Shown in pieces: positions 2 through 14,293 of a stretch of DNA of 14,590 nt. The translations under genes and the position numbers were made by a program. The stretch comes from Achromobacter sp. (GTDB taxonomy: Bacteria > Pseudomonadota > Gammaproteobacteria > Burkholderiales > Burkholderiaceae_B). The DNA is taken from positions 1 through 14,590 of the forward strand of contig DMTA01000200.1 in NCBI GenBank assembly GCA_003454835.1, read 5' to 3'. Under the pieces are notes generated by a model, which was not told the origin of the DNA, did not search any database, and saw nothing but the letters and a program-made list of their open reading frames with translations. Numbering within the stretch: position 1 is the stretch's first letter; each line of letters begins with the position of its first letter.

Positions 2-736
2 GTCCAGGCCGAGATGCACGCCAAGCGCGCGCCGCGCGCCAGCGCGATGGAAGACAGCGCGGTGCTGCCCGAGCCCGAGGCCGAAGTCATCGAGGTCTCG
101 ACGGCCCAGGTCCAGAACGCCGCGACCAGCGCGTCATTCCAGATCAAGAATCCGGCCACGCTCCTGTCGGACAACACCACGCAGCGCGTCGCGATTGCAA
201 CGGCCAAGCTGCCCGCCGCCTTGCAATATCAATCCACCCCGGGTCTGCGCGAAACCGTCTACCTGACCGCGCAAGCCAGCAACAACACCGACTTTCCCTT
301 CCTGGCGGGTCCGCTCAACACGTTCCTGGACGATGCCTTTGTCGCGTCGGGCGCCATGAAGGCCGTGATGCCCGGCGAAAAGCTGGAGCTGGCCCTCGGC
401 GCGGACGATGGCATTTCCATCAAGCGCCAGCTGGTGAACCGCTATACCGAAAGCACCGGATTTTCGGGCAGCGGCAAGCGCGTCACCTACGAGTACAAGA
501 TCACCGTCAAGAACAACAAGGCCACCACGGAAAAGGTGTCCTTCGCGGATCGTCTGCCCATCTCTCGCAACGAGAAGATCGTCGTAAAGCTGCTGTCGCC
601 GTCCGAACGCGACATCAAGCGCGAAGAAGACGGCAAGCTGGTGTGGGACTGGGAACTGGAGCCGGGCAAGTCGCGCGAGACCGTGCTCAAATTCTCGGTG
701 GACTACCCGGGCGATATCAACGTGTACGGCCTCTGA
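2..736 (+). CDS. DUF4139 domain protein, C-terminal part (5' end outside window)
   Basis: The open frame runs in from the left edge and ends with TGA at 734-736, so only the last ~244 residues are seen. The visible part is rich in beta-strand-like segments. It carries phrases typical of the DUF4139 domain (mucoidy-inhibitor MuiA-like family): a YLTAQASNNTDFPFLAGPLNTF-like stretch near positions 260-325, then a VTYEYKITVKNN region, a DRLPIS segment and a closing VWDWELEPGKS...VDYPGDINVYGL. Full family members are usually around 500-600 residues with an N-terminal DUF4140 and coiled-coil part, which would lie outside the window. The biochemical role is not established. The first ATG in frame (14) is internal to the protein and is not a credible start. 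The gene is convergent with the reductase and only 4 bp separate the two stop codons. Confidence 0.85.
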   Translation, partial: VQAEMHAKRAPRASAMEDSAVLPEPEAEVIEVSTAQVQNAATSASFQIKNPATLLSDNTTQRVAIATAKLPAALQYQSTPGLRETVYLTAQASNNTDFPFLAGPLNTFLDDAFVASGAMKAVMPGEKLELALGADDGISIKRQLVNRYTESTGFSGSGKRVTYEYKITVKNNKATTEKVSFADRLPISRNEKIVVKLLSPSERDIKREEDGKLVWDWELEPGKSRETVLKFSVDYPGDINVYGL

Positions 737-750
737 TGCGCTAGCGCATC
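735..750. other. Perfect 16-bp palindrome across two convergent stop codons
   Basis: GATGCGCTAGCGCATC reads identically on both strands. It contains the last bases of the DUF4139 stop (734-736) and the TAG stop of the minus-strand reductase (741-743). As RNA it could form only a short hairpin, and no T-run follows on either strand, so it is a poor intrinsic terminator. It may act as a weak transcript-end structure for both convergent genes, or be coincidental. Confidence 0.4.
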
Positions 751-2051
751 TGGAAGGCCTCCTGGTGAAAAAGCTGCCGCACCGGCATGCCGCGCCGGTA
801 CAGGCCATCCTTCAGCGCGTCGGCAAAGCCCGTCGGACCGCAGAACCAGATACTTGGCCACGGCGCGCCGTCCGGGTGTGCCCTGGCCAGGACGGCGGCG
901 GTCAAGGGCGGGTGCTGGTCGCTGTAACGCACGTCTAATTTCACGCTTGGAATGCGCGCGCACAACTCGCGCAGCCTGTCGGCGAAGGGCGCATCGGCCG
1001 CATTGCGGGCGCAATAGTACAGAGTGGCGTCGGGCGCGTCAGCGGGCCGCGTCTGCAGCGCCTCAAGCCAGGAAATGAAAGGTGTCACGCCGATTCCCGC
1101 GCCTATCCAGATCTGCGAACGGCCCTCGTCTCGGCGATAGTCGAAACAACCGTACGGCCCTTCAACGGTCACCGCCTGCCCGACTGCCAGCGTCTTCTGA
1201 AGGCGCCGCGTGTAATCGCCCAGCGCCTTGATCGAAAACTGCACCCGGCCCGAGCCATCGTCAGCGCCTGAGACGGTGAACGGATGCGCGCCTTCCTTGC
1301 GGTCGGCCGTCAGAAAGGCGAATTGGCCGGCGCGGTGATGCCAGTCGCCCTCTACACGACAGGTCACGCGCAGTATGTCGTCCGAAAGGTGATCGACGTC
1401 GAGGACGGTGCCCTTGTAGCGGCGCGCCCGCCCGATGCGGCCCGTCAGCGCCATGACCGAACAGACCGAACCCACCGCGGTCGCGACGCCAACCAGCCAA
1501 CCGGCCGGTTGCGACCACCAGGCGGCGGGCGTAAGCACAACGCCATGAAATGCCGCCACCAGAAAGATCACTGCGGCGATGCGATGAACCTGACGCCACA
1601 CGTGGTACGGAAACCGGCGCCACAGCGTCAGCAGCACCATTGCCACCAGAATCCACACGGCGTACTCGCCCCATTCCTTGGCCGATCCCCGGAACATGTC
1701 CAGCAAGGCCGCCGTGCGGGGCGTCTTGGGAACCGGATCGAAGATAGCCAGCAGCAACGGCTTGGCCAGTTTGATGAGGTAGTGCGCCGCCGCCAGCGCG
1801 GTGGCCAGAATGCCGCACCATTTGTGCAGCCGGTACATCTTGTCCAGCCCATCCAGCCGCTTCTCGAGCCAGATCGGCCTGACCGACAGCAGCATGATGA
1901 GCGCCATCAGCGCGTAAGCCGCCAGGCCGGTCAGCAAGATCAGTTGGTCGCGCCACGTCCATACGTTGAAGGCAGCGGGCGGCTGCAGCCATAAGGCGAC
2001 CGCCCAGGCCAGGACGCTGACGGCGAGGATCGAGAAAAGGATTCGTCGCAT
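741..2051 (-). CDS. Ferric reductase-like transmembrane protein with FAD/NAD(P)-binding reductase domain
   Basis: This is a predicted membrane oxidoreductase that passes electrons from NAD(P)H through FAD to membrane haem. Counting from the upstream Met at 2057, hydrophobic helices fill residues ~5-25, 38-58, 78-105, 131-147, 158-176 and 185-205. Four histidines (78, 92, 158, 171) are placed as in the bis-haem ferric-reductase/NADPH-oxidase fold. The C-terminal half is ferredoxin-NADP reductase-like: an FAD motif HPFT at 258-261, a nucleotide-binding GAGIGVTPF at 319-327 and FCGPTGF at 405-411. The start at 2051 (Met3 of the longer frame) is preferred because GGGAG lies 8 bases upstream of it, but only 2 bases from the ATG at 2057. 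The electron acceptor (ferric iron, quinone or another partner) cannot be told from sequence. An FNR-like box lies upstream. Confidence is high for the fold and lower for the substrate. Confidence 0.88.
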   Translation of the reverse strand: MRRILFSILAVSVLAWAVALWLQPPAAFNVWTWRDQLILLTGLAAYALMALIMLLSVRPIWLEKRLDGLDKMYRLHKWCGILATALAAAHYLIKLAKPLLLAIFDPVPKTPRTAALLDMFRGSAKEWGEYAVWILVAMVLLTLWRRFPYHVWRQVHRIAAVIFLVAAFHGVVLTPAAWWSQPAGWLVGVATAVGSVCSVMALTGRIGRARRYKGTVLDVDHLSDDILRVTCRVEGDWHHRAGQFAFLTADRKEGAHPFTVSGADDGSGRVQFSIKALGDYTRRLQKTLAVGQAVTVEGPYGCFDYRRDEGRSQIWIGAGIGVTPFISWLEALQTRPADAPDATLYYCARNAADAPFADRLRELCARIPSVKLDVRYSDQHPPLTAAVLARAHPDGAPWPSIWFCGPTGFADALKDGLYRRGMPVRQLFHQEAFQMR

Positions 2052-2155
2052 AGGCATCGCTCCCAGTAAATCGGCAGCCTTACCGAAACGAGGCAGGCCG
2101 CAGGCGAAATGGTAGTTTCGCGCAGGGACGCTATTTCGGATATCCCGGCCGACTT

Positions 2156-2169
2156 TTGACGCGGATCAA
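2156..2169 (-). promoter_or_regulatory. Candidate FNR/ANR box upstream of the ferric reductase-like gene
   Basis: TTGAC, then four bases, then ATCAA matches the FNR/ANR consensus TTGAT-N4-ATCAA at 9 of 10 positions. The centre is about 111 bp upstream of the preferred reductase start on the minus strand. A poor -10-like AAATAG lies at 2136-2131, which would put the box near the -40 position used by class II FNR activation. The placement fits oxygen-responsive control of a haem/flavin electron-transfer gene. One short motif can arise by chance, so this is tentative. Confidence 0.42.
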
Positions 2170-2204
2170 ATTCATCCCGGCAAAAAGTGGCGTGCCGTCC
2201 GCGC

Positions 2205-3431
2205 TCAGTGGGTGCGGCAATACGCGATGAAGTCGTCCGGGGCCAATGGCATCGAAATCCCGTAGCCCTGCGCCACATCGCAACCGAGTTCTCTCAGAAG
2301 CTGCACGTCGCGCTCCTGCTCGACGCCTTCGGCGACCACCCGCCGGCCCAGCACCCGCCCCATTTCAATCGCGGCGGCCACTACGGCGCGCGAGGCGGGT
2401 TCACGGTGCATGTGCACGATGAAGTCGCGATCGATCTTCAATTCATTGAACGGCATGGCGGAAAAAAGGCGCATGGACGCGATGCCCGCGCCGAAATCGT
2501 CCATCGCCAGTTCAAACCCGCGCACCCGCAACAGGTTCAACGTCGACGACAGCGCCAGCCAGTCGTTGACCGGCTCGTCCTCCGTAAGCTCGACCTTGAT
2601 CAGCCGCGCGGGCAATCCCGCCTGCCCCACCTTCTGCTCCAGCAGGCCGGGCAGATCGCGCGAGCACAGCGTGGACGCTGAGGCGTTGATGGCGATGGGC
2701 ACCGCGATGTCTTCGTCCTGCAACTGGCGCAGCACGCTCAGCACGCGGTCGGTGACGCGGCTGAACAGCATGCGGTCCATCCCCAACCGATGCGCCGCCG
2801 GCACGAAGTCGGCAGCGGAAATAGCGCCCAGCTTGGGATCGACCCAGCGCGAAAGCGCCTCGGCCGCCACCACGCGCCCGGTCGACAGGCTGATCTGGGG
2901 TTGCAGCACCACGCTCATGCCGGTGCCGGACAGCAGCGCCTGGCTCAGCGCGGCTTCCATGACCTCGCGCCGCACGGACTTGGGTTTGTCTGGCGACGCG
3001 GATTCGTCGTCGATGCTGTGCAGCGCATTCTTGATGGCCTGCTGCATCGCCACGCGCGTCACGGGCTTGGACAGCGCCTGCGCCGACGGGCAGCCGGCCT
3101 GAAGGGCCAGCCGGACATGCGACTGCAGCAGCTCGTCGCTCAGGCTGCTGATCCAGATGATCGGCGGCATGCTTTTCAAACGCCCCGCGTCCACCAGCCG
3201 GCGCAGATCGTTGGGCAGGCGCGTGCCATCGCCTTCACCCATCACGATGTCGCTGATCAACACGTCATGGTATTGACGCGTGATCGCGCCGACCGCCTCG
3301 ATGCTGCTCGCCAGGCCCGCCACGCGGCGGTAGCCCAACGCCAGCAGCATGTTCTGCAGGTAGGCGCGTTCGACAGGATGATCTTCGACGAGAAGAATCC
3401 GTCGAGACGCTCCGGCATCGGGTTTTGGCAT
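2205..3431 (-). CDS. REC-EAL response regulator, predicted c-di-GMP phosphodiesterase
   Basis: A 408-residue cytoplasmic protein of two domains. An N-terminal receiver domain (~11-137) has acidic Glu16/Asp17, phospho-acceptor Asp61 (in LISDIVM) and Lys122 (SKP). A C-terminal EAL domain (~158-405) keeps the signature residues: Glu191-Ala-Leu, Asn249, Glu281, Asp311-Asp312 in DDFGAG, Lys332 in LKIDRDF, Glu368 in AEGVEQ and Gln388 in QGYG. By family knowledge it should hydrolyse c-di-GMP to pGpG, with activity set by phosphorylation. The start at 3431 has AGGA nine bases upstream. An in-frame ATG at 3473 would add 14 residues before the receiver fold and is less likely. No sensor kinase is adjacent, so the signal is unknown. 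The gene is divergent from aroG and 147-153 bp upstream of the reductase gene on the same strand. Confidence 0.9.
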   Translation of the reverse strand: MPKPDAGASRRILLVEDHPVERAYLQNMLLALGYRRVAGLASSIEAVGAITRQYHDVLISDIVMGEGDGTRLPNDLRRLVDAGRLKSMPPIIWISSLSDELLQSHVRLALQAGCPSAQALSKPVTRVAMQQAIKNALHSIDDESASPDKPKSVRREVMEAALSQALLSGTGMSVVLQPQISLSTGRVVAAEALSRWVDPKLGAISAADFVPAAHRLGMDRMLFSRVTDRVLSVLRQLQDEDIAVPIAINASASTLCSRDLPGLLEQKVGQAGLPARLIKVELTEDEPVNDWLALSSTLNLLRVRGFELAMDDFGAGIASMRLFSAMPFNELKIDRDFIVHMHREPASRAVVAAAIEMGRVLGRRVVAEGVEQERDVQLLRELGCDVAQGYGISMPLAPDDFIAYCRTH

Positions 3432-3622
3432 TGCTGACCGTCCTGAACCTATACACACGGAAAGAAGCCGCACGCGGCCCCAGCCTGCGCCAGCCGCGGG
3501 CCGGTTGCGCCGGCCAACTGAGAGCGTGAATCAATGCTAAGGCATCCACGCAAAACCTGTCTTTATCGATAACGGGTTAATTCAGTTGCCGCAGCCACCC
3601 ATCCGCCTCCACCGTCCGCGGG

Positions 3623-3631
3623 TGCGATAAT
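3623..3631 (+). promoter_or_regulatory. Extended -10 promoter element for aroG
   Basis: TGCGATAAT fits an extended -10 (TGn plus a TATAAT-like hexamer). Transcription would begin near 3638, giving a leader of about 31 bases before the TTG at 3669. It overlaps the ATG at 3630, which argues against that ATG being the translation start. No good -35 is visible at normal spacing, as is common for extended -10 promoters. Confidence 0.45.
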
Positions 3632-3668
3632 GGCGGACTTTCCCGCATCTACCGGCACGGAGCTTCCC

Positions 3669-4802
3669 TTGACCCGCATTGACGATCCCCTGCACGACCG
3701 CGAGGTCGGCGCCGCCGACGCCACCCAGGACAACACGCGCACCGACGACACCCGCATCAGCGCCGTGCGCCCGCTGATTTCACCCGCCCTGCTGCAGGAT
3801 GAACTGCCGGTGTCGGCCGACATCCAGAACCTCGTCGAACAAAGCCGCGCCCAGATCGCCGACGTGCTGCATGGCCGTGACGACCGGTTGGTGCTGGTGG
3901 TAGGCCCGTGCTCCATCCACGACCACGCGCAAGCGATGGAATACGCGCGCAAGCTGCGCATCGCCGCCGACGAGCACAAGAACGACCTGCTGATCGTCAT
4001 GCGCGTGTACTTCGAGAAGCCCCGCACCACCGTCGGCTGGAAGGGCTACATCAACGACCCGCGCCTGGACGGCAGCTTCCGCATCAACGAAGGCCTGCGT
4101 CGCGCCCGCGAACTGCTGCTGGATATCGGCGGCCTGGGTCTGCCCATCGCCACGGAATTCCTCGACCTGCTCAGCCCGCAGTACATCGCCGACCTGATCG
4201 CGTGGGGCGCCATCGGCGCGCGCACCACGGAAAGCCCCAGCCACCGCCAGTTGAGCTCCGGTCTGAGCTGCCCGTTGGGCTTCAAGAACGGCACCGACGG
4301 CGGCGTGCAGATCGCCGCCGACGCGATGGTCGCCGCCAGCGCCAAGCACGCGTTCATGGGCATGACCAAGATGGGCATGGCCGCCATTTTCGAAACCCGC
4401 GGCAACCAGGATACCCACGTGATCCTGCGCGGCGGCAAGCAAGGCCCGAATTTCGACGCCGCCAGCGTGCAGGCCTGTTGCGACGCCCTGCGCAAGGCCG
4501 GTCAGCGCGAACAGGTCATGATCGACTGCTCGCACGCCAACTCCAATAAATCCCATCTGCGCCAGATCGATGTAGCCAACGACATCGCCGCTCAGCTCGC
4601 TCAGGGCGACAGCCGCATCACCGGCGTCATGATCGAAAGCCACCTCGAAGAAGGCCGCCAGGACCTCAAGCCCGGCGAGCCGCTGCGTCACGGCGTTTCC
4701 ATCACGGACGCCTGCCTGGGCTGGACGCAGACCGAGCCCGTGCTCGCCGCCCTGGCCCTGGCCGTCCGCCAGCGCCGCGAAAAGCTCGCCGCCCGCAGCT
4801 GA
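3669..4802 (+). CDS. aroG: 3-deoxy-7-phosphoheptulonate (DAHP) synthase, class I
   Basis: This enzyme condenses phosphoenolpyruvate with erythrose 4-phosphate to DAHP, the first step of the shikimate pathway. Counting from the TTG start it has 377 residues, about 27 more than E. coli AroG, the excess lying in a polar N-terminal extension. Expected motifs are present: VVGPCSIHD with metal ligand Cys81, FEKPRTTVGWKG (117-126), GARTTESPSHRQLSS, GFKNGTDG (204-211), IDCSHANSNK with His289, Glu323 in MIESH and Asp347 in SITDACLGW. TTG at 3669 is chosen because GGAG sits six bases upstream. An ATG at 3630 would add 13 residues but has no ribosome site and lies inside the likely promoter. The metal-binding set is complete, so it should be active. 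Which aromatic amino acid feeds back on it cannot be judged here. Confidence 0.95.
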   Translation: MTRIDDPLHDREVGAADATQDNTRTDDTRISAVRPLISPALLQDELPVSADIQNLVEQSRAQIADVLHGRDDRLVLVVGPCSIHDHAQAMEYARKLRIAADEHKNDLLIVMRVYFEKPRTTVGWKGYINDPRLDGSFRINEGLRRARELLLDIGGLGLPIATEFLDLLSPQYIADLIAWGAIGARTTESPSHRQLSSGLSCPLGFKNGTDGGVQIAADAMVAASAKHAFMGMTKMGMAAIFETRGNQDTHVILRGGKQGPNFDAASVQACCDALRKAGQREQVMIDCSHANSNKSHLRQIDVANDIAAQLAQGDSRITGVMIESHLEEGRQDLKPGEPLRHGVSITDACLGWTQTEPVLAALALAVRQRREKLAARS

Positions 4803-4868
4803 TTGCCATCGGGTGACCGGCGCGCACTGCCACCCGCGCCGGCTGTTACAGCACACACCTGAAACAAT

Positions 4869-4877
4869 TGGTATCAT
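4869..4877 (+). promoter_or_regulatory. Extended -10 promoter element ahead of the small unknown gene
   Basis: TGGTATCAT matches TGn plus a TATAAT-like hexamer (TATCAT, 5 of 6). The predicted start of transcription is near 4884, just before a GC-rich hairpin. A possible -35 (GTTACA near 4845) is too far away at 21 bases, so the extended -10 would have to carry the promoter. Confidence 0.4.
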
Positions 4878-4887
4878 GCGCGTCTCC

Positions 4888-4905
4888 GGGGGGCCTGCGC
4901 CCCCC
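4888..4905 (+). terminator. GC-rich hairpin between aroG and the small unknown gene
   Basis: GGGGGGC pairs with GCCCCCC around a CTGC loop, a perfect 7-bp all-GC stem. It is followed by a pyrimidine-rich stretch with TTTT at 4915-4918, about ten bases after the stem, so it is not a classic intrinsic terminator. It may end aroG transcripts. Alternatively it is a leader structure, because a candidate promoter lies just upstream at 4869-4877. Confidence 0.4.
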
Positions 4906-5023
4906 TCCCGCTTCTTTTCGTTCAGGTATGGATCGTTCTCGCCTTGTAGGGGCCGCGCCGGCCCAGTCCGCCCCCGTGCGGCACAGCATTTTCATTTACA
5001 CCGAAGAACAACGCGGCAACCAG

Positions 5024-5422
5024 ATGGTCGAGTCGCGCGTGATCGGCATGATGTCCGACGTGTCCGGGTCGGAAAAGCTCATTGTCGTGGAAGACCCGTT
5101 TCACGGCCTCAAGTACGTCTACCGCATCGACCACGAAAGCAACAACCTGGACGCGGCCGCCATCACCGAGATCGACGAGTCGCTGTTCAACGGCAAGTCC
5201 TCGATCGAGATCAATGCCATGTCGTACCGGCTGGGCACGGCGGACAATGCTGTCAAGCTCTTGCGCGGCAAGACGCGCTGGATTCAGGACAAGGGCTCGG
5301 TGCTGTCAGTGCTGCTGCAAAATGCTGCTGCGCGCAAAACGCGCTTTGCGCCGGCCCGGATTGAACGCGATCGGATGCGCAAAGTGCCCGATGGTGTGCC
5401 GGTCGAATTACTCCCTTCGTAG
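5024..5422 (+). CDS. Small conserved-looking protein of unknown function
   Basis: I do not recognise a family. From ATG 5024 the product is 132 residues. It is acidic and hydrophilic in the first ~75 residues (MVESRVIGMMSDVSGSEKL..., with EDPFHGLKYVYRIDHES) and becomes basic towards the end (KTRFAPARIERDRMRK). No signal peptide or membrane helix is visible. The start is uncertain. The same frame is open upstream and has an ATG at 4928 that would add 32 residues, but AGG is only one base from that ATG, and the added segment (MDRSRLVGAAPAQSAPVRHS...) has low complexity. No clear ribosome site precedes 5024 either. A promoter-like TGGTATCAT at 4869 and a weak terminator at 5511-5534 bracket it as a single-gene unit. 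Confidence 0.6.
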   Translation: MVESRVIGMMSDVSGSEKLIVVEDPFHGLKYVYRIDHESNNLDAAAITEIDESLFNGKSSIEINAMSYRLGTADNAVKLLRGKTRWIQDKGSVLSVLLQNAAARKTRFAPARIERDRMRKVPDGVPVELLPS

Positions 5423-5448
5423 CCAGGACGGTATCCAGGCCGGTTCTG

Positions 5449-5473
5449 CTTATCCACAGAATTTGTGGATAAG
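5449..5473. promoter_or_regulatory. Inverted pair of DnaA-box sequences
   Basis: CTTATCCACA and TGTGGATAAG form a perfect 10-bp inverted repeat with a 5-base spacer (GAATT). Each arm contains TTATCCACA, the consensus high-affinity DnaA box, one in each orientation. The site lies 27 bp after the stop of the small unknown gene and about 270 bp before the response-regulator start. No AT-rich unwinding region, further box cluster or replication gene is near, so it is not an origin. Possible roles are a DnaA-responsive control site or a DnaA titration site. It is not followed by a T-run, so it is unlikely to be a terminator. Confidence 0.55.
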
Positions 5474-5510
5474 AAAAACCCAAACGCCCGGCTGATGGCC
5501 TTTCGGGCGA

Positions 5511-5534
5511 TGCGCACCGGGCTGCGCAATTTTT
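5511..5534 (+). terminator. Weak intrinsic terminator after the small unknown gene
   Basis: TGCGCA (5511-5516) pairs with TGCGCA (5523-5528) around the loop CCGGGC, and five T residues follow at 5530-5534. The stem is only 6 bp, so efficiency is doubtful. A second, looser stem (CGCCCG 5485-5490 with CGGGCG 5504-5509) lies just before it. The rest of the gap up to 5741 shows no convincing promoter. Confidence 0.4.
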
Positions 5535-5741
5535 GACCAATTGATTTTTGCCCGCCGCCTGGATCACATCCTTGATCCATGCGGCGCCGCCGCATCGGCG
5601 GGGATGATATTCTGCGCGCACGCAGGCTGCAGACGCACACCGTCGTCCCCTGATTTTTCCGCGCGAACGCGACCCTCCAAGAATTCACAGCATGACGAGA
5701 ACACACCTGTTCGCCCAAGGACCGCGAGAGCGCGCCGCGTC

Positions 5742-6899
5742 GTGACGATCATCGTCGTCGACGACCACGGGGATTGGCGCGATTCCATCGCCGAATACAT
5801 CCAGGACCTGGGCCTGGACAAAGCCATCCTCACCGCAGGCTCGCTGGCCGAGCTGGACAAGCTGTTGCTCACCGTCACGCCCGCGATCCTCGTGCTGGAC
5901 GCCATGCTGCCGGACGGCGACGGGCTGGCGCGCGTGTCGCATCTGCGCACCACCTATCCGTCGATGGGCATCATCATGCTCACCGGACGGCTCTTAAGCG
6001 AAGACAAGGTGTCGGGCCTGAGCCTGGGCGCCGACCACTACCTGACCAAGCCCGTGAATCTGGCCGAGCTCGGCGCCACGCTGGTGTCGCTGTCGCGGCG
6101 CCTGCGCGTCGTACCGGCCGCCGGGATCGATGACGCGCAATCGGACGCCTGGCGCTTCGACCCCGCGCGACGCACGCTGACCTCGCCCGGCCAGATCACC
6201 GTCGACATCACCGACACCGAAAGCCGCCTGATCGGCGCGCTGATCCAGGCGGCCCCGTTGCCGCTGTCGCGCGCCCGTCTGGTCGAAGCGCTGGGCGCCG
6301 TGCGCGTGCCGGTTTCGCTGCCGCGCACCGAGTTGGCCATTCCGGCGTATTACGTCATCGCCCCCGCCGAAGCGTCCAGCAATCTGGCCCGCTACGACGG
6401 CGTGCGCTACGGCCACCGCGCCAAGCAGTACGGCGACCTGAACGAGATGATCAGCCGCTCGCGCGCCGAAGGCTTCGGCGACGAGGTCAAGCGCCGCATC
6501 CTGATCGGCACCTACGTGCTGTCCCACGGCTATTACGACGCCTACTACCTGCAGGCGCAGCGCCTGCGCCGCCTGATCGCGCAGGACTTCCAGCGCGCCT
6601 ATGCCGATCAGTGCGACGTCATCATGGGACCGGTCACGCCCACGGTCGCCAAGAACATCGGCGACAACCGCGACGACCCGACCGCCGACTGGCTGGCCGA
6701 CGTCTACACGCTGGGCGTCAGCCTGGCCGGTTTGCCGGCCATGTCGATCCCGTGCGGCTTCGGTGGCGAGAAACAGAATCGCCCCATCGGCCTGCAGATC
6801 ATCGGCAACTACTTCGACGAAGGCCGCCTGCTGGCCATCGCCGACCGCTATCAACACGTGACGGACTGGCATCAGCGTGCCCCTGTCCAGCAAGGCTGA
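5742..6899 (+). CDS. In-frame chimera: truncated OmpR-type response regulator joined to C-terminal GatA
   Basis: One uninterrupted frame encodes two unrelated pieces. Residues 1-~122 (from GTG 5742) are a receiver domain with Asp7/Asp8, phospho-acceptor Asp53, Thr81 and Lys103 (TKP). Residues ~137-185 start an OmpR-type winged helix ([14 protein letters not shown]...[13 protein letters not shown]...RARLVEALG). That domain stops before the recognition helix. From about residue 182-191 the sequence is the end of GatA ([23 protein letters not shown]..., [44 protein letters not shown]). The receiver could still be phosphorylated, but DNA binding is probably lost and the GatA part lacks its active site. 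GTG 5742 is chosen because the receiver fold begins there. The frame is open upstream to ATG 5541, but that extension looks non-coding. Either a real rearrangement or an assembly chimera explains it. Confidence 0.8.
6312..6899 (+). pseudogene. gatA: gatA remnant: last ~195 residues of Glu-tRNA(Gln)/Asp-tRNA(Asn) amidotransferase subunit A
   Basis: GatA is the amidase subunit of GatCAB and is normally about 485-510 residues, with a Lys/cis-Ser/Ser triad and a GGSSGG-type loop in its first ~200 residues. Here only the C-terminal ~40% survives, beginning at [11 protein letters not shown]. The catalytic triad and amidase signature are absent, and no gatC precedes it. The remaining part ends normally with TGA at 6897-6899, 4 bp before gatB. 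It is translated as the tail of the response-regulator frame, so the frame is not broken by a stop. The exact left border is uncertain because the residues EALGA just before it (codons 6285-6299) fit both proteins. Confidence 0.82.
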
Positions 6900-6903
6900 G
6901 AAC

Positions 6904-8361
6904 ATGAACTGGGAAATCGTCATCGGCCTGGAAACGCACACGCAGCTTTCCACGGACTCCAAGATTTTTTCGGGCAGCAGCACGCAATTCGGCGCCGCGC
7001 CCAACACGCAGGCCAACGAAGTCGACCTGGCGCTGCCGGGCAGCCTGCCGGTCATGAACCGCGGCGCGGCCGAGCGCGCCATCCGCTTCGGCCTGGCCGT
7101 GGGCGCCACGATCGCGCCGCGCTCGGTCTTTGCGCGCAAGAACTACTTCTACCCTGACCTGCCCAAGGGCTACCAGATCAGCCAGTACGAGCTGCCCGTC
7201 GTGGTGGGCGGTTCGCTGTCGTTCTTCGTGGGCGAAGAAGAAAAGACGGTCAACCTGACGCGCGCCCACCTGGAAGAAGACGCCGGCAAGTCCCTGCACG
7301 ACGACTTCAACCTGGGCAATGGCAGCCCGGCCAGCGGCATTGACCTGAACCGCGCCGGCACCCCGCTGCTGGAAATCGTGACCGAACCCGAAATGCGCTC
7401 TGCCGCCGAGGCCGTGGCCTACGCGCGCGCGCTGCACAGCCTGGTCGTGTGGCTCGGCATTTGCGACGGCAACATGCAGGAAGGCTCCTTCCGCTGCGAT
7501 GCCAACGTGTCGGTCCGCCCTGTAGGCCAGAAGGAATTCGGCACCCGCACCGAGATCAAGAACGTCAACTCGTTCCGCTTCCTGGAACGCGCCATCACCT
7601 ATGAAGCGCGCCGCCAGATCGAGCTGATCGAGGACGGAGGCACCGTCGTCCAGGAAACGCGCCTGTACGACGCCGACCGCGACGAGACGCGCAGCATGCG
7701 CAGCAAGGAAGACGCGCACGACTACCGCTACTTCCCCGATCCCGATCTGCCCACGCTGGTGATCTCCAGCGCGTGGGTGGACGAGGTCCGCGCCGCCATG
7801 CCGGAACTGCCGGCCGCCCAGCGAGCCCGCTTCGAAACGGAATACGGTCTGCCCGCGTACGACGCCGCGCAACTGACCATCAGCCGCGATCTGGCCGCCT
7901 ACTTCCAGGCGGTCGCCAACGCGCTGCCGGCAGGCCAGGCCAAGCTCGCGTCCAACTGGGTCATGGGCGAAGTCGCCGCCGTGCTCAACAAGGAAGAAAA
8001 GACCATCGCCGAATCGCCCGTCGCGGCGCCGGCGCTGGCGGCCCTGATCAGCCGCATCATCGACGGCACGATCTCCAACAAGATCGCCCGCGAAGTCTTC
8101 GGCGCCATGTGGGCTGGCGAAAACGGCGGCGATGCCGACGCCATCATCGAATCGCGCGGCCTGAAGCAGATCAGCGACACGGGCGCCATCGGCGCGATGA
8201 TCGACGAGGTGCTGGCCGCCAACCCGGCCATCGTCGAGGAGTACCGCGCCGGCAAGCAGAAGGCGTTCAACTCCCTGGTCGGCCAGATCATGAAGGCCGC
8301 CCGCGGCAAGGCCAATCCGCAGCAGGTGAATGATCTGCTGAAGCAGAAGCTGGATAGTTGA
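6904..8361 (+). CDS. gatB: Aspartyl/glutamyl-tRNA amidotransferase subunit B
   Basis: GatB binds and phosphorylates mischarged Glu-tRNA(Gln) or Asp-tRNA(Asn) within cytoplasmic GatCAB, using ammonia delivered from GatA. The 485-residue product is full length for the family. It shows [17 protein letters not shown] at the start, [15 protein letters not shown] (81-95), [20 protein letters not shown] (147-166), [18 protein letters not shown] (189-206), [12 protein letters not shown] (219-230), [11 protein letters not shown] (273-283) and a C-terminal YqeY-like tail domain (~335-485). ATG 6904 has AAGG eight bases upstream and matches the family start. A GTG at 6877 in the same frame overlaps the gatA tail and is rejected. 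gatB lies 4 bp after the gatA remnant, as in a normal gatCAB operon. It needs GatA and GatC from elsewhere to be useful. Confidence 0.96.
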
Positions 8362-8367
8362 TGGTCG

Positions 8368-8392
8368 GCCGGATCCCCACGCGGGGACCGGC
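8368..8392 (+). other. Hairpin just after gatB
   Basis: GCCGG and TCCCC pair with GGGGA and CCGGC, with a single bulged A at 8373 and an ACGC loop. No T-run follows. It may stabilise the gatB mRNA 3' end or assist the terminator 22 bp downstream. Confidence 0.4.
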
Positions 8393-8413
8393 GCAATATC
8401 AGACTGAATCAGG

Positions 8414-8440
8414 GGCCGCGGCATATTGCCGCGGCCTTTT
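8414..8440 (+). terminator. Strong intrinsic terminator after gatB
   Basis: GGCCGCGGCA (8414-8423) pairs perfectly with TGCCGCGGCC (8427-8436) around a TAT loop and is followed by TTTTG. The 10-bp GC-rich stem plus T-run is a standard Rho-independent terminator. It separates gatB from the toxin-antitoxin pair. Confidence 0.85.
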
Positions 8441-8484
8441 GTTTGGCCAAGAATGATCTGGTCGATTTCGCCGGAGGCTTGGCC

Positions 8485-8730
8485 ATGAACTACACCGAGG
8501 TCAGCAGCAACGACTTGCTGCACCGATTCACCGATTACCTGCAGGCCCTCAGCCAGGGGCAGCACTTCATCATTGCTGTCGACGGCGTGCGCCGCGCCAG
8601 GCTGACGCCCGTCCTGCCCGACACTTCGCTGAACGCGCACGATGCCCTGGAAGCCATGAAGCGCCTGCACACCGCGGCCCCCGTCTCCCATGACATCATC
8701 CGCGCCTGGATCGAAGAAGGCCGGGAATGA
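8485..8730 (+). CDS. Phd/YefM- or VapB-like antitoxin
   Basis: An 81-residue protein immediately upstream of, and overlapping, a PIN-domain toxin gene. The N-terminal half (MNYTEVSSNDLLHRFTDYL, then QHFIIAVDGVRRARLTPV) resembles the DNA-binding Phd/YefM fold, in which a short helix pair is followed by a strand reading like 'F-I-I-x-x-x-G-x-x-x-A-R-L-x-P'. The C-terminal part (HDIIRAWIEEGRE) would wrap the toxin. ATG 8485 has a near-perfect GGAGG seven bases upstream. A TTG at 8443 in the same frame overlaps the gatB terminator and is rejected. By analogy the antitoxin neutralises VapC and represses its own operon. The assignment rests more on context and fold-like pattern than on strong motif identity. 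Confidence 0.72.
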   Translation: MNYTEVSSNDLLHRFTDYLQALSQGQHFIIAVDGVRRARLTPVLPDTSLNAHDALEAMKRLHTAAPVSHDIIRAWIEEGRE

Positions 8731-9200
8731 ACACCATCCGTCTGGTGCCGGACGCGTCGGTCGCCCTTGCCTGGCTGCTGTACCGCGTGAATGTCCACGA
8801 ATCGCTGCTTGCCCAGCATCTGCTCGACGTCGCGCACGGCTCGCAAAACACCGTGCCTCACATCTGGCGCGTGGAAGTTGCCAATGGCGTTTTGCGTGCA
8901 GAGCGCAGCCAGCGCATTTCGCGGGCCCAGGTTGCTGCATTCAATCAGCTTCTCGACAACCTGCCCATCGCCGCCGACAACGACGATGCGGCTTCCAGCA
9001 TCGCGCGCACCTGCCAGCTTGCCCGCGCCCACGGGTTGACTGCCTACGACGCCAGTTATCTCGAACTCTCGCTGCGGCAGCGCGCGTGCCTGGCGACCTT
9101 TGACCGCAAGCTGGCGGACGCGGCGCGGGCCAGCGGCGTCACCGTGTTCGGGCAACCGCACGGCGTCGCCGAACCCGTTGCGCCCTATCTGTGGCAATGA
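8727..9200 (+). CDS. vapC: VapC-family PIN-domain ribonuclease toxin
   Basis: A 157-residue PIN-domain protein. The expected acidic metal-binding residues are visible: Asp9 in LVPDASVALAW, Glu50 in WRVEVANGVL, Asp108 in LTAYDASYLEL and Asp126 in LATFDRKL. VapC toxins are Mg-dependent RNases that cut tRNA or rRNA when the antitoxin is degraded. The actual target here is unknown. The start ATG overlaps the antitoxin stop as ATGA (8727-8730), implying translational coupling. The C-terminus runs ~15 residues past the usual PIN fold (PHGVAEPVAPYLWQ). All acidic residues are intact, so the toxin should be functional. Confidence 0.9.
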   Translation: MNTIRLVPDASVALAWLLYRVNVHESLLAQHLLDVAHGSQNTVPHIWRVEVANGVLRAERSQRISRAQVAAFNQLLDNLPIAADNDDAASSIARTCQLARAHGLTAYDASYLELSLRQRACLATFDRKLADAARASGVTVFGQPHGVAEPVAPYLWQ

Positions 9201-9224
9201 CGTTTTGGCAATAGCATCTTTGCA

Positions 9225-9259
9225 ATGACAAAGGGCGGCCCATGGCCGCCCTTTGTCAT
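9225..9259. terminator. Bidirectional terminator between vapC and pyrE
   Basis: ATGACAAAGGGCGGCC and GGCCGCCCTTTGTCAT form a perfect 16-bp stem with a CAT loop. The A and T tracts lie inside the arms, so it reads as a terminator on both strands. It sits 24 bp after the vapC stop and 20 bp from the end of minus-strand pyrE, which is the right place for a shared convergent terminator. Confidence 0.75.
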
Positions 9260-9279
9260 CGCCTTCAGCAACGAGACGC

Positions 9280-9966
9280 TTACTTCACCCCGTACTTCGT
9301 CCGATACGCCAACACGGCATCCCGGTTCTCCGCAAACGACGCATCATCCTGCAGCAGGGCCAGGATATCGGTCAGCGAGGCAATCGCCACCACGGGGATG
9401 CCGTAGGTCTTGGCCACGTCCTGCACGGCCGAATGCGGCGACAGGGCGTCGTCCGGGCCGGCGCGTTCCATGCGGTCCATCGCGATCAGCACGGCGGCCG
9501 GTTCAGCGCCGGCGGCGCGGATGATTTCCACGGACTCGCGCACCGACGTGCCGGCCGTGATGACGTCGTCAATGATGACGACCTTGCCCTTGAGCGGCGC
9601 GCCGACCAGCGTGCCGCCTTCACCGTGGTCCTTGGCTTCCTTGCGGTTGTAGGCAAACGGCACGTCGCCGCGGCCCTGCATGTCGGGGTGGCCGGCCAGC
9701 GCCACGGCGGTGGCGGTGGACAGCGGAATGCCCTTGTATGCGGGGCCGAACAGCATGTCGAACTTGACGCCGGAATCCAGCAGCGCCTGCGCGTAAAACT
9801 GCGCCAGCTTGCCAACCGAGCGGCCATTGTTGAACAGGCCCGCGTTGAAAAAATAGGGGCTGATGCGGCCCGACTTGACCTTGAAGCTGCCAAAGCGCAG
9901 AACGCCCTCGTTCAAGGCGAAACGGACGAAATCCAGGGCGGTGACGGAGGACGGGGCGGCGGGCAT
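9280..9966 (-). CDS. pyrE: Orotate phosphoribosyltransferase
   Basis: PyrE transfers phosphoribose from PRPP to orotate, giving orotidine 5'-phosphate in de novo pyrimidine synthesis. The 228-residue product from ATG 9966 has the family pattern: [18 protein letters not shown] (28-45), [12 protein letters not shown] (72-83), [15 protein letters not shown] (104-118) and the PRPP-binding [13 protein letters not shown] (129-141). Length is close to that of E. coli PyrE (213). No clear ribosome site precedes 9966. The in-frame ATG at 9999 overlaps a -10-like TAAAAT on the minus strand, so 9966 is preferred. The gene is divergent from exoA, with 131 bp between starts. Confidence 0.95.
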
Positions 9967-9997
9967 GCAAGGAGATCCGGTAGGTGGCAGACCCCGC

Positions 9998-10003
9998 ATT
10001 TTA
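9998..10003 (-). promoter_or_regulatory. Possible -10 element for pyrE
   Basis: On the minus strand TAAAAT lies 32 bp upstream of the pyrE start at 9966 and differs from TATAAT at one position. No good -35 is found at 16-18 bp. Transcription from here would start near 9991 and exclude the ATG at 9999. Confidence 0.3.
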
Positions 10004-10097
10004 TCCGCTGTCGGGGCTGTTCCATGAAGCCTTTGCAGAGTCGGTTAAATTCCTGGCACTGTCCGCCCTTTTGCGGCCGCATTACAGGAGTTTCGCT

Positions 10098-10892
10098 TTG
10101 CTGCGCATCACGTCGATCAACCTCAATGGCATCCGGTCCGCCTTCAAAAAGGGCCTGCAACCGTGGATGGAAAAGCACGCTGCCGACGTGCTGTGCCTGC
10201 AGGAAATCAAGGTTTCCCATGATGACCTGACCGACGAACTGCGCCATCCGCCTGGTTACACCGGCCACTTTCACCACGCCGTGAAAAAGGGCTACAGCGG
10301 GGTGGGCATCTACCTGCGAGACGCCGCCGAGCGCGTGAACAACGGCTTTGATTGTGAAGAGTTCGATAACGAAGGCCGCATCATCCGCGCCGACTGGAAG
10401 GATCTGTCGGTCATCAGCGCCTACCTGCCTTCCGGCTCCAGTGGCGACGAGCGCCAGCAGGCGAAATACCGCTTCCTGGACCGGTTCGGACCGTGGATCG
10501 ACGCGTTGATGCACGAGCACAAGACGACCGGGCGCGAATTCGTCATCTGCGGCGACTGGAACATCGCGCACAAGGAAATCGACCTGAAGAACTGGAAGGG
10601 CAACATGAAGAATTCGGGCTTTCTGCCCGAAGAACGCGCGTGGCTGACGGACGTCTTCGACAAGCGCGGCTTTGTCGATGTGTTCCGCACCATCGACGAC
10701 CGCCCCGATCAGTACACCTGGTGGAGCAACCGCGGCCAGGCCTGGGCCAAGAATGTCGGGTGGCGCATCGATTACCAGATCGCCACCCCTGGCATCGCGG
10801 CCAAGGCGCGCAGCGTCGCGATCTACAAGGATGAACGCTTCTCGGACCACGCGCCGTTGACGGTCGATTACGACTTCACCCTGCGGGCGTGA
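10098..10892 (+). CDS. exoA: Exonuclease III-family AP endonuclease
   Basis: This is a Mg-dependent DNA repair nuclease of the XthA/ExoA family that incises at abasic sites and trims 3' ends. The 264-residue product has ITSINLNGIRSA (4-15, Asn10), VLCLQEIKV with metal ligand Glu36, YSGVGIYLR, EGRIIRADW, SAYLPSG with Tyr109, CGDWNIAH with Asp153 and Asn155, WRIDYQIA with Asp225, and the terminal FSDHAPLTVDYDF containing the catalytic Asp250-His251 pair. The start is TTG 10098, with CAGGAG seven bases upstream; this gives the family N-terminus (M)LRITSINLNG. The frame is open further upstream, to 9984, but that part overlaps the pyrE control region and is not conserved-looking. All catalytic residues are present. 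Confidence 0.95.
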   Translation: MLRITSINLNGIRSAFKKGLQPWMEKHAADVLCLQEIKVSHDDLTDELRHPPGYTGHFHHAVKKGYSGVGIYLRDAAERVNNGFDCEEFDNEGRIIRADWKDLSVISAYLPSGSSGDERQQAKYRFLDRFGPWIDALMHEHKTTGREFVICGDWNIAHKEIDLKNWKGNMKNSGFLPEERAWLTDVFDKRGFVDVFRTIDDRPDQYTWWSNRGQAWAKNVGWRIDYQIATPGIAAKARSVAIYKDERFSDHAPLTVDYDFTLRA

Positions 10893-11176
10893 TTTTTCTC
10901 AATTCAAATTTAGGGACATATAAGGCGCGCGTGAACGGCGGCACCGGAGTTAGTACGCTGCCCGGCGCCCTTCATGGCTAGACCAGCGGGTGCCTCTCCC
11001 TATGGAACATGCGACCCTTTAAATAGGGACGCATTAAAATTCCCTGAGTTTTCAAGCTCTCCGGGCTTGAGCGCCCTCTTCCGGACGGATAGCACCCCCC
11101 ACGCCACCTAGATACGACCCCATTTTCTGCCCTTAAAAACTCGTTTGTTATCAATGCGATGGCGCGGTTTTTCGCT
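10893..11176. other. Intergenic region with AT-rich patches and TAGGGAC repeats
   Basis: No credible gene is seen between exoA and the gdhA promoter region. The stretch is more AT-rich in patches than its surroundings. It holds an imperfect direct repeat, TAGGGACATATAA (10911-10923) and TAGGGACGCATTAA (11024-11037), and inverted copies of the core at 10997-11002 (TCCCTA) and 11042-11046 (TCCCT). A 6-bp stem, TCAAGC (11053-11058) with GCTTGA (11066-11071), lacks a T-run. No tRNA or terminator with a proper tail was recognised. It could be a remnant of mobile DNA, a small-RNA locus or spacer. Confidence 0.35.
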
Positions 11177-11206
11177 TTGCGCAGGGCAACATTTTGCCCC
11201 TACAAT
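11177..11206 (+). promoter_or_regulatory. Sigma70-type promoter for gdhA
   Basis: A -10 TACAAT at 11201-11206 (5 of 6) lies 18 bp after a weak -35, TTGCGC, at 11177-11182. Transcription would start near 11213, giving a leader of about 90 bases. The leader can form GGTGCA/TGCACC (11221-11236) and GCGCC/GGCGC (11251-11267) stems. Confidence 0.5.
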
Positions 11207-11209
11207 CCT

Positions 11210-11226
11210 CGCACCATACCGGTGCA
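11210..11226. promoter_or_regulatory. Candidate NtrC operator in the gdhA control region
   Basis: CGCACC, then ATACC, then GGTGCA matches the NtrC site TGCACC-N5-GGTGCA at 11 of 12 defined positions. A further half-site TGCACC follows at 11231-11236, so three half-sites lie about one helical turn apart. The site covers the predicted sigma70 start near 11213, a position suited to repression. NtrC is known to repress gdhA directly in Pseudomonas putida under nitrogen limitation, which makes the location meaningful. Not tested here. Confidence 0.5.
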
Positions 11227-11261
11227 GCATTGCACCAAGACAAACTGATAGCGCCCCAATC

Positions 11262-11277
11262 TGGCGCAGTTTTCGCA
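11262..11277 (+). promoter_or_regulatory. Weak sigma54-like (-24/-12) match before gdhA
   Basis: TGGCGCAGTTTTCGCA matches TGGCACR-N4-TTGCW at 10 of 12 defined positions and keeps the GG and GC pairs at the required distance. It would start transcription near 11288, just before the ribosome site. The match shares bases with a possible leader hairpin (11251-11267). Two mismatches leave it doubtful. Confidence 0.25.
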
Positions 11278-11304
11278 CCTATTCGAAGCACCCCCGAGGA
11301 GATC

Positions 11305-12651
11305 ATGGTGAAAGTGCAGAGTCTGGACGACTTCCTGCGTGGCGTCGCCGCGCGCGACCCGCAGCAACCCGAATTCATGCAAGCCGTCCAGGAGGTGATG
11401 CTCAGCTTGTGGCCCTTCGTCGAGAAGCATCCCCACTACGCCGAGCACGCCCTGCTGGAACGCCTGGTCGAACCGGAACGCGTCATCCAGTTCCGCATTT
11501 GCTGGACCGACGACCAAGGCCGCGCCCAGGTCAACCGCGGCTTCCGCATCCAGCACAGCTCCGCGATCGGCCCCTTCAAGGGCGGCATGCGCTTTCACCC
11601 GTCGGTGAACCTGTCGATCCTGAAATTCCTCGCCTTCGAACAGACCCTGAAGAACTCGCTGACCACGCTGCCCATGGGCGGCGGCAAGGGCGGATCCGAC
11701 TTCGACCCCAAGGGCAAGTCCGACGCCGAAGTCATGCGCTTCTGCCAGGCGCTGATGATCGAGCTGTACCGTCACCTGGGTCCGGACACCGACGTGCCCG
11801 CCGGCGATATCGGCGTGGGCGCGCGTGAAGTCGGCTTCATGGCCGGCATGATGAAAAAGCTGTCCAACTCGACCGCCAGCGTCTTCACCGGCAAGGGCCT
11901 GACCTTCGGCGGCAGCCTGATCCGCCCCGAAGCCACCGGCTACGGCACCGTCTACTTCGCGGAGGAAATGCTCAAGCGCGTCGGCAAGTCCTTCGACGGC
12001 ATGCGCGTGTCCGTGTCGGGCTCGGGCAACGTGGCGCAGTACGCCATCGAGAAGGCCATGGCGCTGGGCGCCCGCGTCATCACCGTGTCGGATTCGAACG
12101 GCACCGTGGTCGACGAAGCCGGCTTCAACCACGAGAAGCTCGTGGCGCTGATGCACATCAAGAATGACCTGCGCGGCCGCCTGGACACCTACGCCCGCCA
12201 GTTCGGCCTGCAGTACGAAGCCGGCAAGCGCCCGTGGCACGTGCCCGTCGACGTCGCCCTGCCCTGCGCCACGCAGAATGAGCTGGAACTGTCGGACGCC
12301 CAGACGCTCATCAAGAACGGCGTGCTGGCGGTTGCCGAAGGCGCCAACATGCCCGCCACGCTGGACGCCGCCAAGGCCTTCATCGCCGCGCGCGTGCTGT
12401 ACGCGCCGGGCAAGGCCAGCAACGCCGGCGGCGTGGCCGTGTCGGGCCTGGAAATGGCCCAGAACTCGGCCCGCCTGTCGTGGAACCGCGAGGAAGTGGA
12501 CACCCGTCTGCACGCCATCATGCGCGACATCCACGAAAACTGCGTGCGCCACGGCCACTCCGAGCGCGAGTACGTGAACTACCTGGACGGCGCCAACATC
12601 GCCGGCTTCGTCAAGGTTGCGGACGCCATGCGCCAGCAAGGGCTGTACTGA
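11305..12651 (+). CDS. gdhA: NADP-type glutamate dehydrogenase
   Basis: GdhA makes glutamate from 2-oxoglutarate and ammonium. The 448-residue product matches the hexameric E. coli type (447) along its length: LLERLVEPERVIQFR (50-64), SSAIGPFKGGMRFHPSVNLSILKF with Lys92, TLPMGGGKGGSDFDPKGKS with catalytic Lys128, PAGDIGVG with Asp168, KGLTFGGSLIRPEATGYG and the Rossmann GSGNVAQYAIEKA (239-251). It closes with GANIAGFVKVADAM. ATG 11305 follows GAGGAG by only three bases. A GTG at 11308 has the more usual six-base spacing and would shorten the protein by one residue. The preference for NADPH is inferred from close likeness to the E. coli enzyme. A promoter and NtrC-like site lie upstream, and strong hairpins follow. 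Confidence 0.97.
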   Translation: MVKVQSLDDFLRGVAARDPQQPEFMQAVQEVMLSLWPFVEKHPHYAEHALLERLVEPERVIQFRICWTDDQGRAQVNRGFRIQHSSAIGPFKGGMRFHPSVNLSILKFLAFEQTLKNSLTTLPMGGGKGGSDFDPKGKSDAEVMRFCQALMIELYRHLGPDTDVPAGDIGVGAREVGFMAGMMKKLSNSTASVFTGKGLTFGGSLIRPEATGYGTVYFAEEMLKRVGKSFDGMRVSVSGSGNVAQYAIEKAMALGARVITVSDSNGTVVDEAGFNHEKLVALMHIKNDLRGRLDTYARQFGLQYEAGKRPWHVPVDVALPCATQNELELSDAQTLIKNGVLAVAEGANMPATLDAAKAFIAARVLYAPGKASNAGGVAVSGLEMAQNSARLSWNREEVDTRLHAIMRDIHENCVRHGHSEREYVNYLDGANIAGFVKVADAMRQQGLY

Positions 12652-12661
12652 TCTGCGCCAA

Positions 12662-12689
12662 GCGCGGCGTCCGGCAACTGACGCCGCGC
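12662..12689 (+). other. First of two hairpins after gdhA
   Basis: GCGCGGCGTC pairs perfectly with GACGCCGCGC around an 8-base loop. No T-run follows directly. It probably works with the adjacent terminator to protect the transcript end. Confidence 0.55.
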
Positions 12690-12695
12690 CAATGC

Positions 12696-12725
12696 AAAGG
12701 CCGACTCGATTGAGTCGGCCTTTTT
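12696..12725 (+). terminator. Strong intrinsic terminator of gdhA
   Basis: GGCCGACTC (12699-12707) pairs with GAGTCGGCC (12712-12720) around a GATT loop. AAA before the stem can pair with the TTT that follows, and the run is TTTTT at 12721-12725. This is a clear Rho-independent terminator 45 bp after the gdhA stop. Confidence 0.88.
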
Positions 12726-12800
12726 GCTTGTGGGGAATCGCAAGGAGCAGCGGCCCGGCGCTGCCAGCCTGCCGGTCAACTGCCGGTCACCGGCCTCCTG

Positions 12801-12833
12801 GCCACTGGCCTGCCACTGGCCTGCCACTGGCCT
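12801..12833. repeat. Three tandem copies of an 11-bp unit
   Basis: GCCACTGGCCT is repeated exactly three times in a row, followed by a truncated GCC. Just upstream, CTGCCGGTCA also occurs twice (from about 12769). The array lies in the spacer between the gdhA terminator and the end of the copper chaperone gene. It looks like a small minisatellite that could vary in copy number by slippage. Confidence 0.75.
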
Positions 12834-12883
12834 GCCGCGAAATCGTCAACGGCCCGCCGACAGTCGCCGCCGCAGCGCCAGCC

Positions 12884-13375
12884 TCAATGCTTCATGCCGC
12901 CATGATCGTGGCTCATGCCGGGATTGTGCGAGGCCGGCTTGACCTTGAACTCCACCGCCACCTCGCCCGCCTTTTCGAACTTGAGCGTGGCGGGCACGGT
13001 GGCGCCATCCTTGAACGGCGCCTTCAGCTTGATGAACATGACGTGATAGCCTCCCGGGCTGAGCTTGACCTCGGTGTCGGCGGGCAGCGCGATGCCGCCT
13101 TCGACCTGACGCATCTTGGAGACGCCGTTTTCGGTCTGCACCGTGTGCAGCTCGACGCGTTCGGCGGCGTCCGACGTCACGGACAGCAGGCGGTCCGGCG
13201 CCTTGGCGTCGTTGTCGATATCCATGTACCCCGCGCCGTTGGCCTGTCCGGGCGCCGAAGCGCGGACCCAGAGATCGTCGACTTCGACCTGGCCGACCTT
13301 GTAGTCCTTGGCCCACGCCGAACTGGCGGTGCACAGGCCGATCGCGGCGACAACGGCAAACTTGCGGATGTTCAT
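12884..13375 (-). CDS. Periplasmic PCu(A)C-type copper chaperone
   Basis: A 163-residue exported protein. Residues 1-22 form a signal peptide (MNIRKFAVVAAIGLCTASSAWA) with probable cleavage after the AWA at 20-22. The copper site of the PCu(A)C family is visible: His77, Met88 ten residues later, then His111-x-Met113 after 22 residues (the family pattern is H-x10-M-x21-H-x-M). A His/Met-rich tail (SHNPGMSHDHGGMKH) can bind more copper. Members deliver Cu(I) to cytochrome oxidase centres or help copper handling; the partner is not identifiable here. The start has AGGAGG about six bases upstream. It lies 18 bp after argP on the same strand, so the two may be co-transcribed, although no functional link is obvious. 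Confidence 0.9.
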   Translation of the reverse strand: MNIRKFAVVAAIGLCTASSAWAKDYKVGQVEVDDLWVRASAPGQANGAGYMDIDNDAKAPDRLLSVTSDAAERVELHTVQTENGVSKMRQVEGGIALPADTEVKLSPGGYHVMFIKLKAPFKDGATVPATLKFEKAGEVAVEFKVKPASHNPGMSHDHGGMKH

Positions 13376-13393
13376 GGGTGTCCTCCTGAGACG

Positions 13394-14293
13394 TTAACGG
13401 CGCCTGACCAGGCTGCGGGCGGCTGACAGCACCGAGTCGGTCAAGGCTTCCATGGCCTCGGAGTTTACCCGCCAATGCTGCCAGTAGAGCGGCACGTCCT
13501 CCCATGCACGGCCGCGCAGCAGGACGAGTTGACCGGCATCAAGATGCTCCTGCACGAGCGGCAGCGGGTTCATGGTCCAACCCAGTCCGCCCAGCGTGGC
13601 CTGCACGAAGGCGCGTGTGGACGGCACCCACCAGACCGGCGGCTCCCACGGCGCGGGGTCGGCGATCTTGTGCGCAAAACGCGCCTGCAGCGCGTCCTTG
13701 CGGTTGAAGACCAGCACCGGCGCCTGGGCCAGCGTCTGCGCGTTGACGCCCGAGGCGAAGTAGCGCTTGTGGAAGTCGGGCGTGCAGGTCGCCACATAGC
13801 GCATGCTGCCCAGCGCGTGGATGCGGCAGCCCTGCACGGGATCGGCCAGCGTGGTCACGGCGCCCAGCACGGAGCCGTTGCGCAGCAGCGCGGCCGTGTG
13901 GTCCTGGTCTTCGGACAGCATGTCCAGCGTGGCGCGGGTACGCGCCGCGAACTGCAGGGCCGCGTCGACGAACCAAGTTTCCAGGCTGTCGTGGTTGACC
14001 GCGATGGGGATGCTGGCGTGGGGCACGTCGTCGTCGCCAACGCCCAGCCGGTTCAGCGCATCGTGCTCCAGCAAGGCGGTCTGTTCGGCCAGTTGCACCA
14101 GCACCTGACCATCGGCCGTGGCCGCGGCGGGCACCGTGCGCTGGACCAGCAGCCGGCCCATCCGGTCTTCCAGCGCCTTGATCCGCTGAGACAGCGCCGA
14201 CGGGCTGATCGCCAGGCGGCGTGCGGCGGCTTCGAAACTGCCTTCTTCCAGCACCGCGGCGAAGGCGGCCAGTTGCGGGTGTACCAGGTCCAT
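13394..14293 (-). CDS. argP: LysR-family regulator ArgP
   Basis: A 299-residue LysR-type transcription factor, close in length to E. coli ArgP (297). It has an N-terminal winged helix (helix-turn-helix ~18-40, GSFEAAARRLAISPSALSQRIKALE) and a C-terminal effector domain reading VNHDSLETWFVDAA and WWVPSTRAFVQATLGGLGWTMNPL, typical of ArgP. ArgP senses lysine and arginine and switches on amino-acid exporters of the LysE/ArgO family; such a gene begins divergently 93 bp away, which supports the name. The start at 14293 has AGAGG about six bases upstream. The frame is open to 14506, but that extension overlaps lysE and is rejected. Confidence 0.92.
   Translation of the reverse strand: MDLVHPQLAAFAAVLEEGSFEAAARRLAISPSALSQRIKALEDRMGRLLVQRTVPAAATADGQVLVQLAEQTALLEHDALNRLGVGDDDVPHASIPIAVNHDSLETWFVDAALQFAARTRATLDMLSEDQDHTAALLRNGSVLGAVTTLADPVQGCRIHALGSMRYVATCTPDFHKRYFASGVNAQTLAQAPVLVFNRKDALQARFAHKIADPAPWEPPVWWVPSTRAFVQATLGGLGWTMNPLPLVQEHLDAGQLVLLRGRAWEDVPLYWQHWRVNSEAMEALTDSVLSAARSLVRRR

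Follow-up and report, generated by a model that had tools for sequence, protein, structure and literature searches.

Bacteria that lack AsnRS form Asn-tRNA through a relaxed AspRS together with GatCAB, as described in an excerpt of PMC4206432, and the excerpted text of PMC7541841 calls GatCAB essential, in mycobacteria. A fused polypeptide containing GatA is known from Mycobacterium smegmatis, where the same excerpt traces the GatC-GatA fusion to loss of the gatC stop codon and reports a check by Western blot (PMC7541841). A different kind of junction is found in short-read metagenome assemblies, where chimeric contigs join unlinked sequence and are said to lead to erroneous conclusions (abridged text of PMC8172020). 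The mock-community chimeras described there formed between two similar genomes and at contig ends.

The window analyzed here, the whole 14,590-nucleotide stretch, is one complete contig (C190) of the source assembly and carries an apparent fusion of a response regulator with GatA. In contrast to the M. smegmatis protein as excerpted, GatA is truncated and its partner is unrelated. Like the metagenome chimeras, the window joins unlinked sequence, although its join is internal to the contig and within one bin, which differs from the cases in the abridged PMC8172020. We consider it highly likely that the contig is an assembly or library chimera of two distant, ordinary genes.

The fusion lies in an open frame without stops at 5742-6899. 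Translation from the GTG at 5742 yields 385 residues and terminates at the stop codon 6897-6899. A Pfam profile search places the receiver domain (PF00072) at residues 3-112 (E 1.5e-17) and the Amidase domain (PF01425) at residues 178-364 (profile positions 262-445, E 4e-41), while Trans_reg_C (PF00486) is absent at E 0.001. In the intact regulator of G034, PF00486 is matched at positions 4-76 of 77. Compared with that gene, to which the regulator part has 94% DNA identity, the fusion keeps 186 of 240 residues. These comprise the receiver and the start of an OmpR-type winged helix. The fusion lacks the last 54 residues, which lie in the DNA-binding domain and behind it, so that the winged-helix domain is incomplete. 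The fusion thus shares the receiver and first winged-helix part with OmpR-type response regulators (PF00072 and PF00486), and agrees with them fully in the receiver domain only.

On the other side of the join, the fusion retains residues 308-511 of GatA, the last 204 of 511 by comparison with G029; among gatA loci, the top five matches share 94–97% DNA identity with it. In this part it resembles the GatA of GatCAB (PF01425, TIGR00132), is close to the genus relatives and is followed by gatB, whereas it has none of residues 1-307, where the catalytic motifs lie. The motifs AHKDAF (80), GGSSGGS (155) and TDTGGS (176), which we take to hold the Lys/Ser/Ser catalytic triad, are all N-terminal to residue 308, and the triad region (residues 80-183) is outside the retained part. 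The fusion scores 227.5 bits against the GatA model TIGR00132, over profile positions 274-464 only. This is below the curated cut-off of 481.1 bits, and the fusion does not qualify as a full-length GatA. The sequence-only reading had described a stop-free frame linking a receiver and part of a winged helix to the last ~195-204 residues of GatA, without the active site, directly upstream of an intact gatB and with a join within 6280-6320. The frame, the domain matches and the alignments to relatives bear out each of these points (Table 1).

Table 1 Features of the window and their matches in relatives
Feature	Position	Strand	Basis
Left arm, collinear with the regulator locus	2..6299		G029 about 3.00 Mb; G034 C1; G020 C5
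OmpR-type response regulator gene, 5' part (receiver, linker, winged-helix start)	5742..6282	+	PF00072; left-arm locus
Join TCGAAGCGCTGGGCGCC, overlap of both arms' alignments, codes EALGA	6283..6299	+	Alignments to relatives
Right arm, collinear with the gatA-gatB locus, small gaps	6283..14276		G029 about 6.04 Mb; G034 C11; G020 C9
gatA 3' part, residues about 313-511 plus stop	6300..6899	+	PF01425 262-445
gatB, intact	6904..8361	+	GatB_N and GatB_Yqey (Pfam); directly after fusion

The two arms of the window are collinear with two unlinked loci in the relatives. In the single-contig genome G029, the regulator locus is on the minus strand and the gatA-gatB locus on the plus strand. The right-arm match in G020 extends to 14260. 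In the left arm, 736-2204 is missing from G029 and 711-2204 from G034, while the stretch is present in G020. Used as a query, the fusion matches two separate places in all 36 same-genus relatives. The regulator part ends at query position 557-558 and the GatA part starts at 519-544, mostly at 542, so that the usual overlap corresponds to 17 bp of the window, 6283-6299; in the fragmentary genome G033, the regulator match starts at position 133 instead of 1. Both loci are on one contig in 14 relatives, where they lie 2.6–3.7 Mb apart by coordinates, on opposite strands in eight (including G029) and on the same strand in six. Each locus is intact in its own place: a closed frame spans 506–518 codons in 29/29 fetched gatA loci (L010-L038) and 242–313 codons, stop to stop, in all 22 regulator loci that were fetched. 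The comparison of gene order that had been proposed thus shows the regulator and gatA-gatB as separate loci. The discontinuity that had been read as a breakpoint or a chimera is present relative to every relative examined, and a chimera is its best supported explanation.

Other genes in the arms can be observed. On visual inspection, an open reading frame at 741-2057 on the minus strand resembles a membrane protein of the ferric reductase kind; it sits in the stretch that G020 has and that the corresponding loci of G029 and G034 lack. A receiver and EAL domain protein (Pfam) is encoded on the minus strand at 2205-3440, near the regulator gene. Downstream of gatB, 8452-9200 encodes a small protein without a Pfam match and, after it, a PIN-domain protein; the two resemble a toxin-antitoxin pair of the VapBC type. 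This region aligns in G029 and G034 and mostly not in G020.

At the join, both genes encode the peptide EALGA, and do so in the same phase. A 17-base motif, TCGARGCSCTGGGCGCC, is present in 23 of the 29 gatA loci and 17 of the 22 regulator loci of relatives; among the regulator loci, those of the close relatives G029, G034 and G020 gave no match to it. Within a genome, the identical run between regulator and gatA spans 7–17 bp (17 comparable pairs among 18 relatives; the gatA of G027 lacks the motif), with 17 bp in G016 and 8–9 bp in G029, G034 and G020. The short sequence common to both sides at 6283-6299 is seen in relatives; intact copies of both sites from the source species are absent from the assembly. 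The fused frame stays open because EALGA is encoded in the same phase in both genes. An open frame is expected from a join at this stretch, and is no sign of selection.

The source assembly consists of 585 contigs, with 78.85% completeness and 4.34% contamination. It contains gatC at 216-452 of contig C173, followed by the first 64 gatA codons (residues 1-64), which run to the contig edge; 6,397 bp of C173 are collinear with the region upstream of gatCA. A second contig, C451, carries the region beyond the regulator. Both end 0.7–0.8 kb before the join is reached. By the coordinates of relatives, the stretches without a strong match in the source assembly measure about 725 bp in gatA and about 778 bp on the regulator side; the only matches that fall in these gaps are short ones of 71–93% identity on other contigs, amidase genes among them. 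The proposed search of the rest of the genome thus recovered gatC and the region beyond the regulator, but no full gatA: nothing in the source assembly exceeds the curated TIGR00132 cut-off. The claim that gatC is missing holds for the window and fails for the assembly, and loss of gatC was rejected. A deletion joining the two genes, also part of the sequence-only reading, was rejected on the distance between the loci in the 14 relatives, and also on the far-side sequence of both breakpoints, which is kept on C173 and C451. For the suggested partial duplication, no second copy was seen. The source genome also has no glnS match, while glnS was found over the cut-off in 24/24 genus relatives searched, which probably reflects incompleteness of the assembly. 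With 78.85% completeness and no glnS, absence from the assembly therefore means little.

A second instance of the join was searched for in genomes, proteins and plasmids. With a 216-bp query centered on the join, the sole full-length match is the window itself, and the join is absent from the 42 other genus genomes. The regulator piece is present in all 42, ending at query position 115-116, and the GatA piece in 41 (the exception is G066), mostly starting at 100-102. In G004, G016, G030 and G061, the GatA match extends 23 bases beyond the left edge of the shared stretch, to position 77, with 85–87% identity over the whole match. The extra bases belong to the locus of gatA itself, and these genomes also match the regulator piece at another place. 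In the protein search, only the 8000 candidates with the most words in common were scored, and among the best 120 no other protein covers the whole fusion. The window's own protein scores 853 bits, the next one listed 457 bits with 53% coverage, and the other 119 listed matches cover 52–68%. The near ones among them bear the names Achromobacter and Bordetella. The cluster of the window's protein has one member, from one contig of 14,590 bases. A degenerate junction pattern retrieved 34 stretches from a genome contig collection, which may omit records of or near the source genome. A tblastn comparison of the fusion protein with these stretches gave rows for 25, none with E under 0.2, and the 34 are therefore unrelated matches. 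In the plasmid collection, eight records have partial matches and none covers 80% of the query. A conserved fusion was rejected, with 0/42 other genus genomes and the window's protein alone among the 120 listed.

Several GatA proteins deserve separate mention. Across the part that is shared, the metagenomic proteins P0002 and P0003 reach 99% and 94% identity. Compared by eye with P0007, they show in-frame internal losses between short repeated residues (GGS, AGS) that remove part of the catalytic region, and that may be similar short-repeat assembly errors. P0013, a protein of 404 residues from a contig of 504,704 bases, is listed with Amidase and GatB_N domains, and may be either a fusion of GatA with GatB or a predicted read-through.

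The viability of a cell with the fusion would depend on its route to Asn-tRNA. AsnRS (asnS) was found over the curated cut-off in none of 25 genus members, comprising 24 relatives and the source genome. Among the 41 genomes searched, two have asnS over the cut-off, neither of them in the genus, and the weaker matches are probably AspRS and LysRS. GatCAB should therefore be the only Asn-tRNA route in the genus. A chromosome whose only gatA lacks the catalytic half should not support life, since no AsnRS was detected in the genus. The bypass suggested in the sequence-only reading, by way of GlnRS and AsnRS, thus fails for AsnRS.

These results bear on whether the join exists in cells. A real inversion or translocation in the strain, with breakpoints in the regulator gene and in gatA, would make the window one of two junctions, and would place the reciprocal one (gatA 5' part joined to the regulator 3' part) in the gap between C173 and C451. 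Sequence between these contigs is missing and could contain it, and the opposite strands of the two genes in eight of the 14 one-contig relatives, including G029, provide the geometry that an inversion needs. However, such an event would destroy the only gatA found, in a genus where AsnRS was not detected, and the join recurs neither in the other genus genomes nor in the other listed proteins, which makes it very unlikely. Still less likely is a megabase-scale inversion at the microhomology that the cell survived through an AsnRS or a second gatCAB located in the missing fifth of the genome. The estimated contamination indicates that more than one strain may be mixed, in which case most cells could have an intact gatCAB while a subpopulation carries the fusion on a rearranged or duplicated copy. 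We give this even less weight: neither the regulator part nor the GatA part showed another strong match in the source assembly, which has five matches and where the next one listed after the window is C475 (E 5.9e-8), and the end of gatA proper is on no other contig. A functional protein, in which phosphorylation of the receiver controls the GatB-binding C-terminal domain of GatA, is the least credible reading. Its frame is open and joined in phase, but the common EALGA codons account for this, the working parts of both partners are lost, and no second example emerged from the genome, protein or pattern searches. The phosphorylatable fusion of the sequence-only reading accordingly finds no support.

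The chimera itself meets some opposing evidence. In a base-rate control, six of 40 systematically chosen contigs, a small sample, matched 1.2 Mb of G029. Five of these were collinear with it and C215 ran off the fetched block, so the control found no chimera, and chimeras are not shown to be common in this assembly. The count took in matches of at least 300 bp and at least 85% identity. C159 was covered to 20,000 of its 22,803 bases, and the window and contigs C447, C473, C25 and C451 were examined in addition to the 40. The common stretch is short for a join made by an assembler, as the k-mers usually employed by assemblers are longer. A chimera formed in the library or during amplification would be an equally good fit, and so would a real event at microhomology.

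For the chimeric contig, the window has two arms that come from two loci sharing a similar stretch, with a join absent from the relatives examined and with gatC and the gatA start located on another contig. The join, at up to 17 bp common to both genes, would connect two chromosomal regions that are not linked, of which the first breaks off in the regulator gene and the second starts inside gatA. This common stretch would arise from Glu-Ala-Leu-Gly-Ala being encoded by chance, with similar codons and in the same phase, in both. We infer that the join formed in the library or by the assembler and not in a living chromosome.

The apparent regulator-GatA fusion is thus almost certainly not a new protein. 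It serves as a caution that five identical residues, in phase by chance, can make a misjoined contig resemble a clean in-frame fusion. If the fusion were true, a genus member without AsnRS could lose the catalytic half of GatA, which would be surprising.
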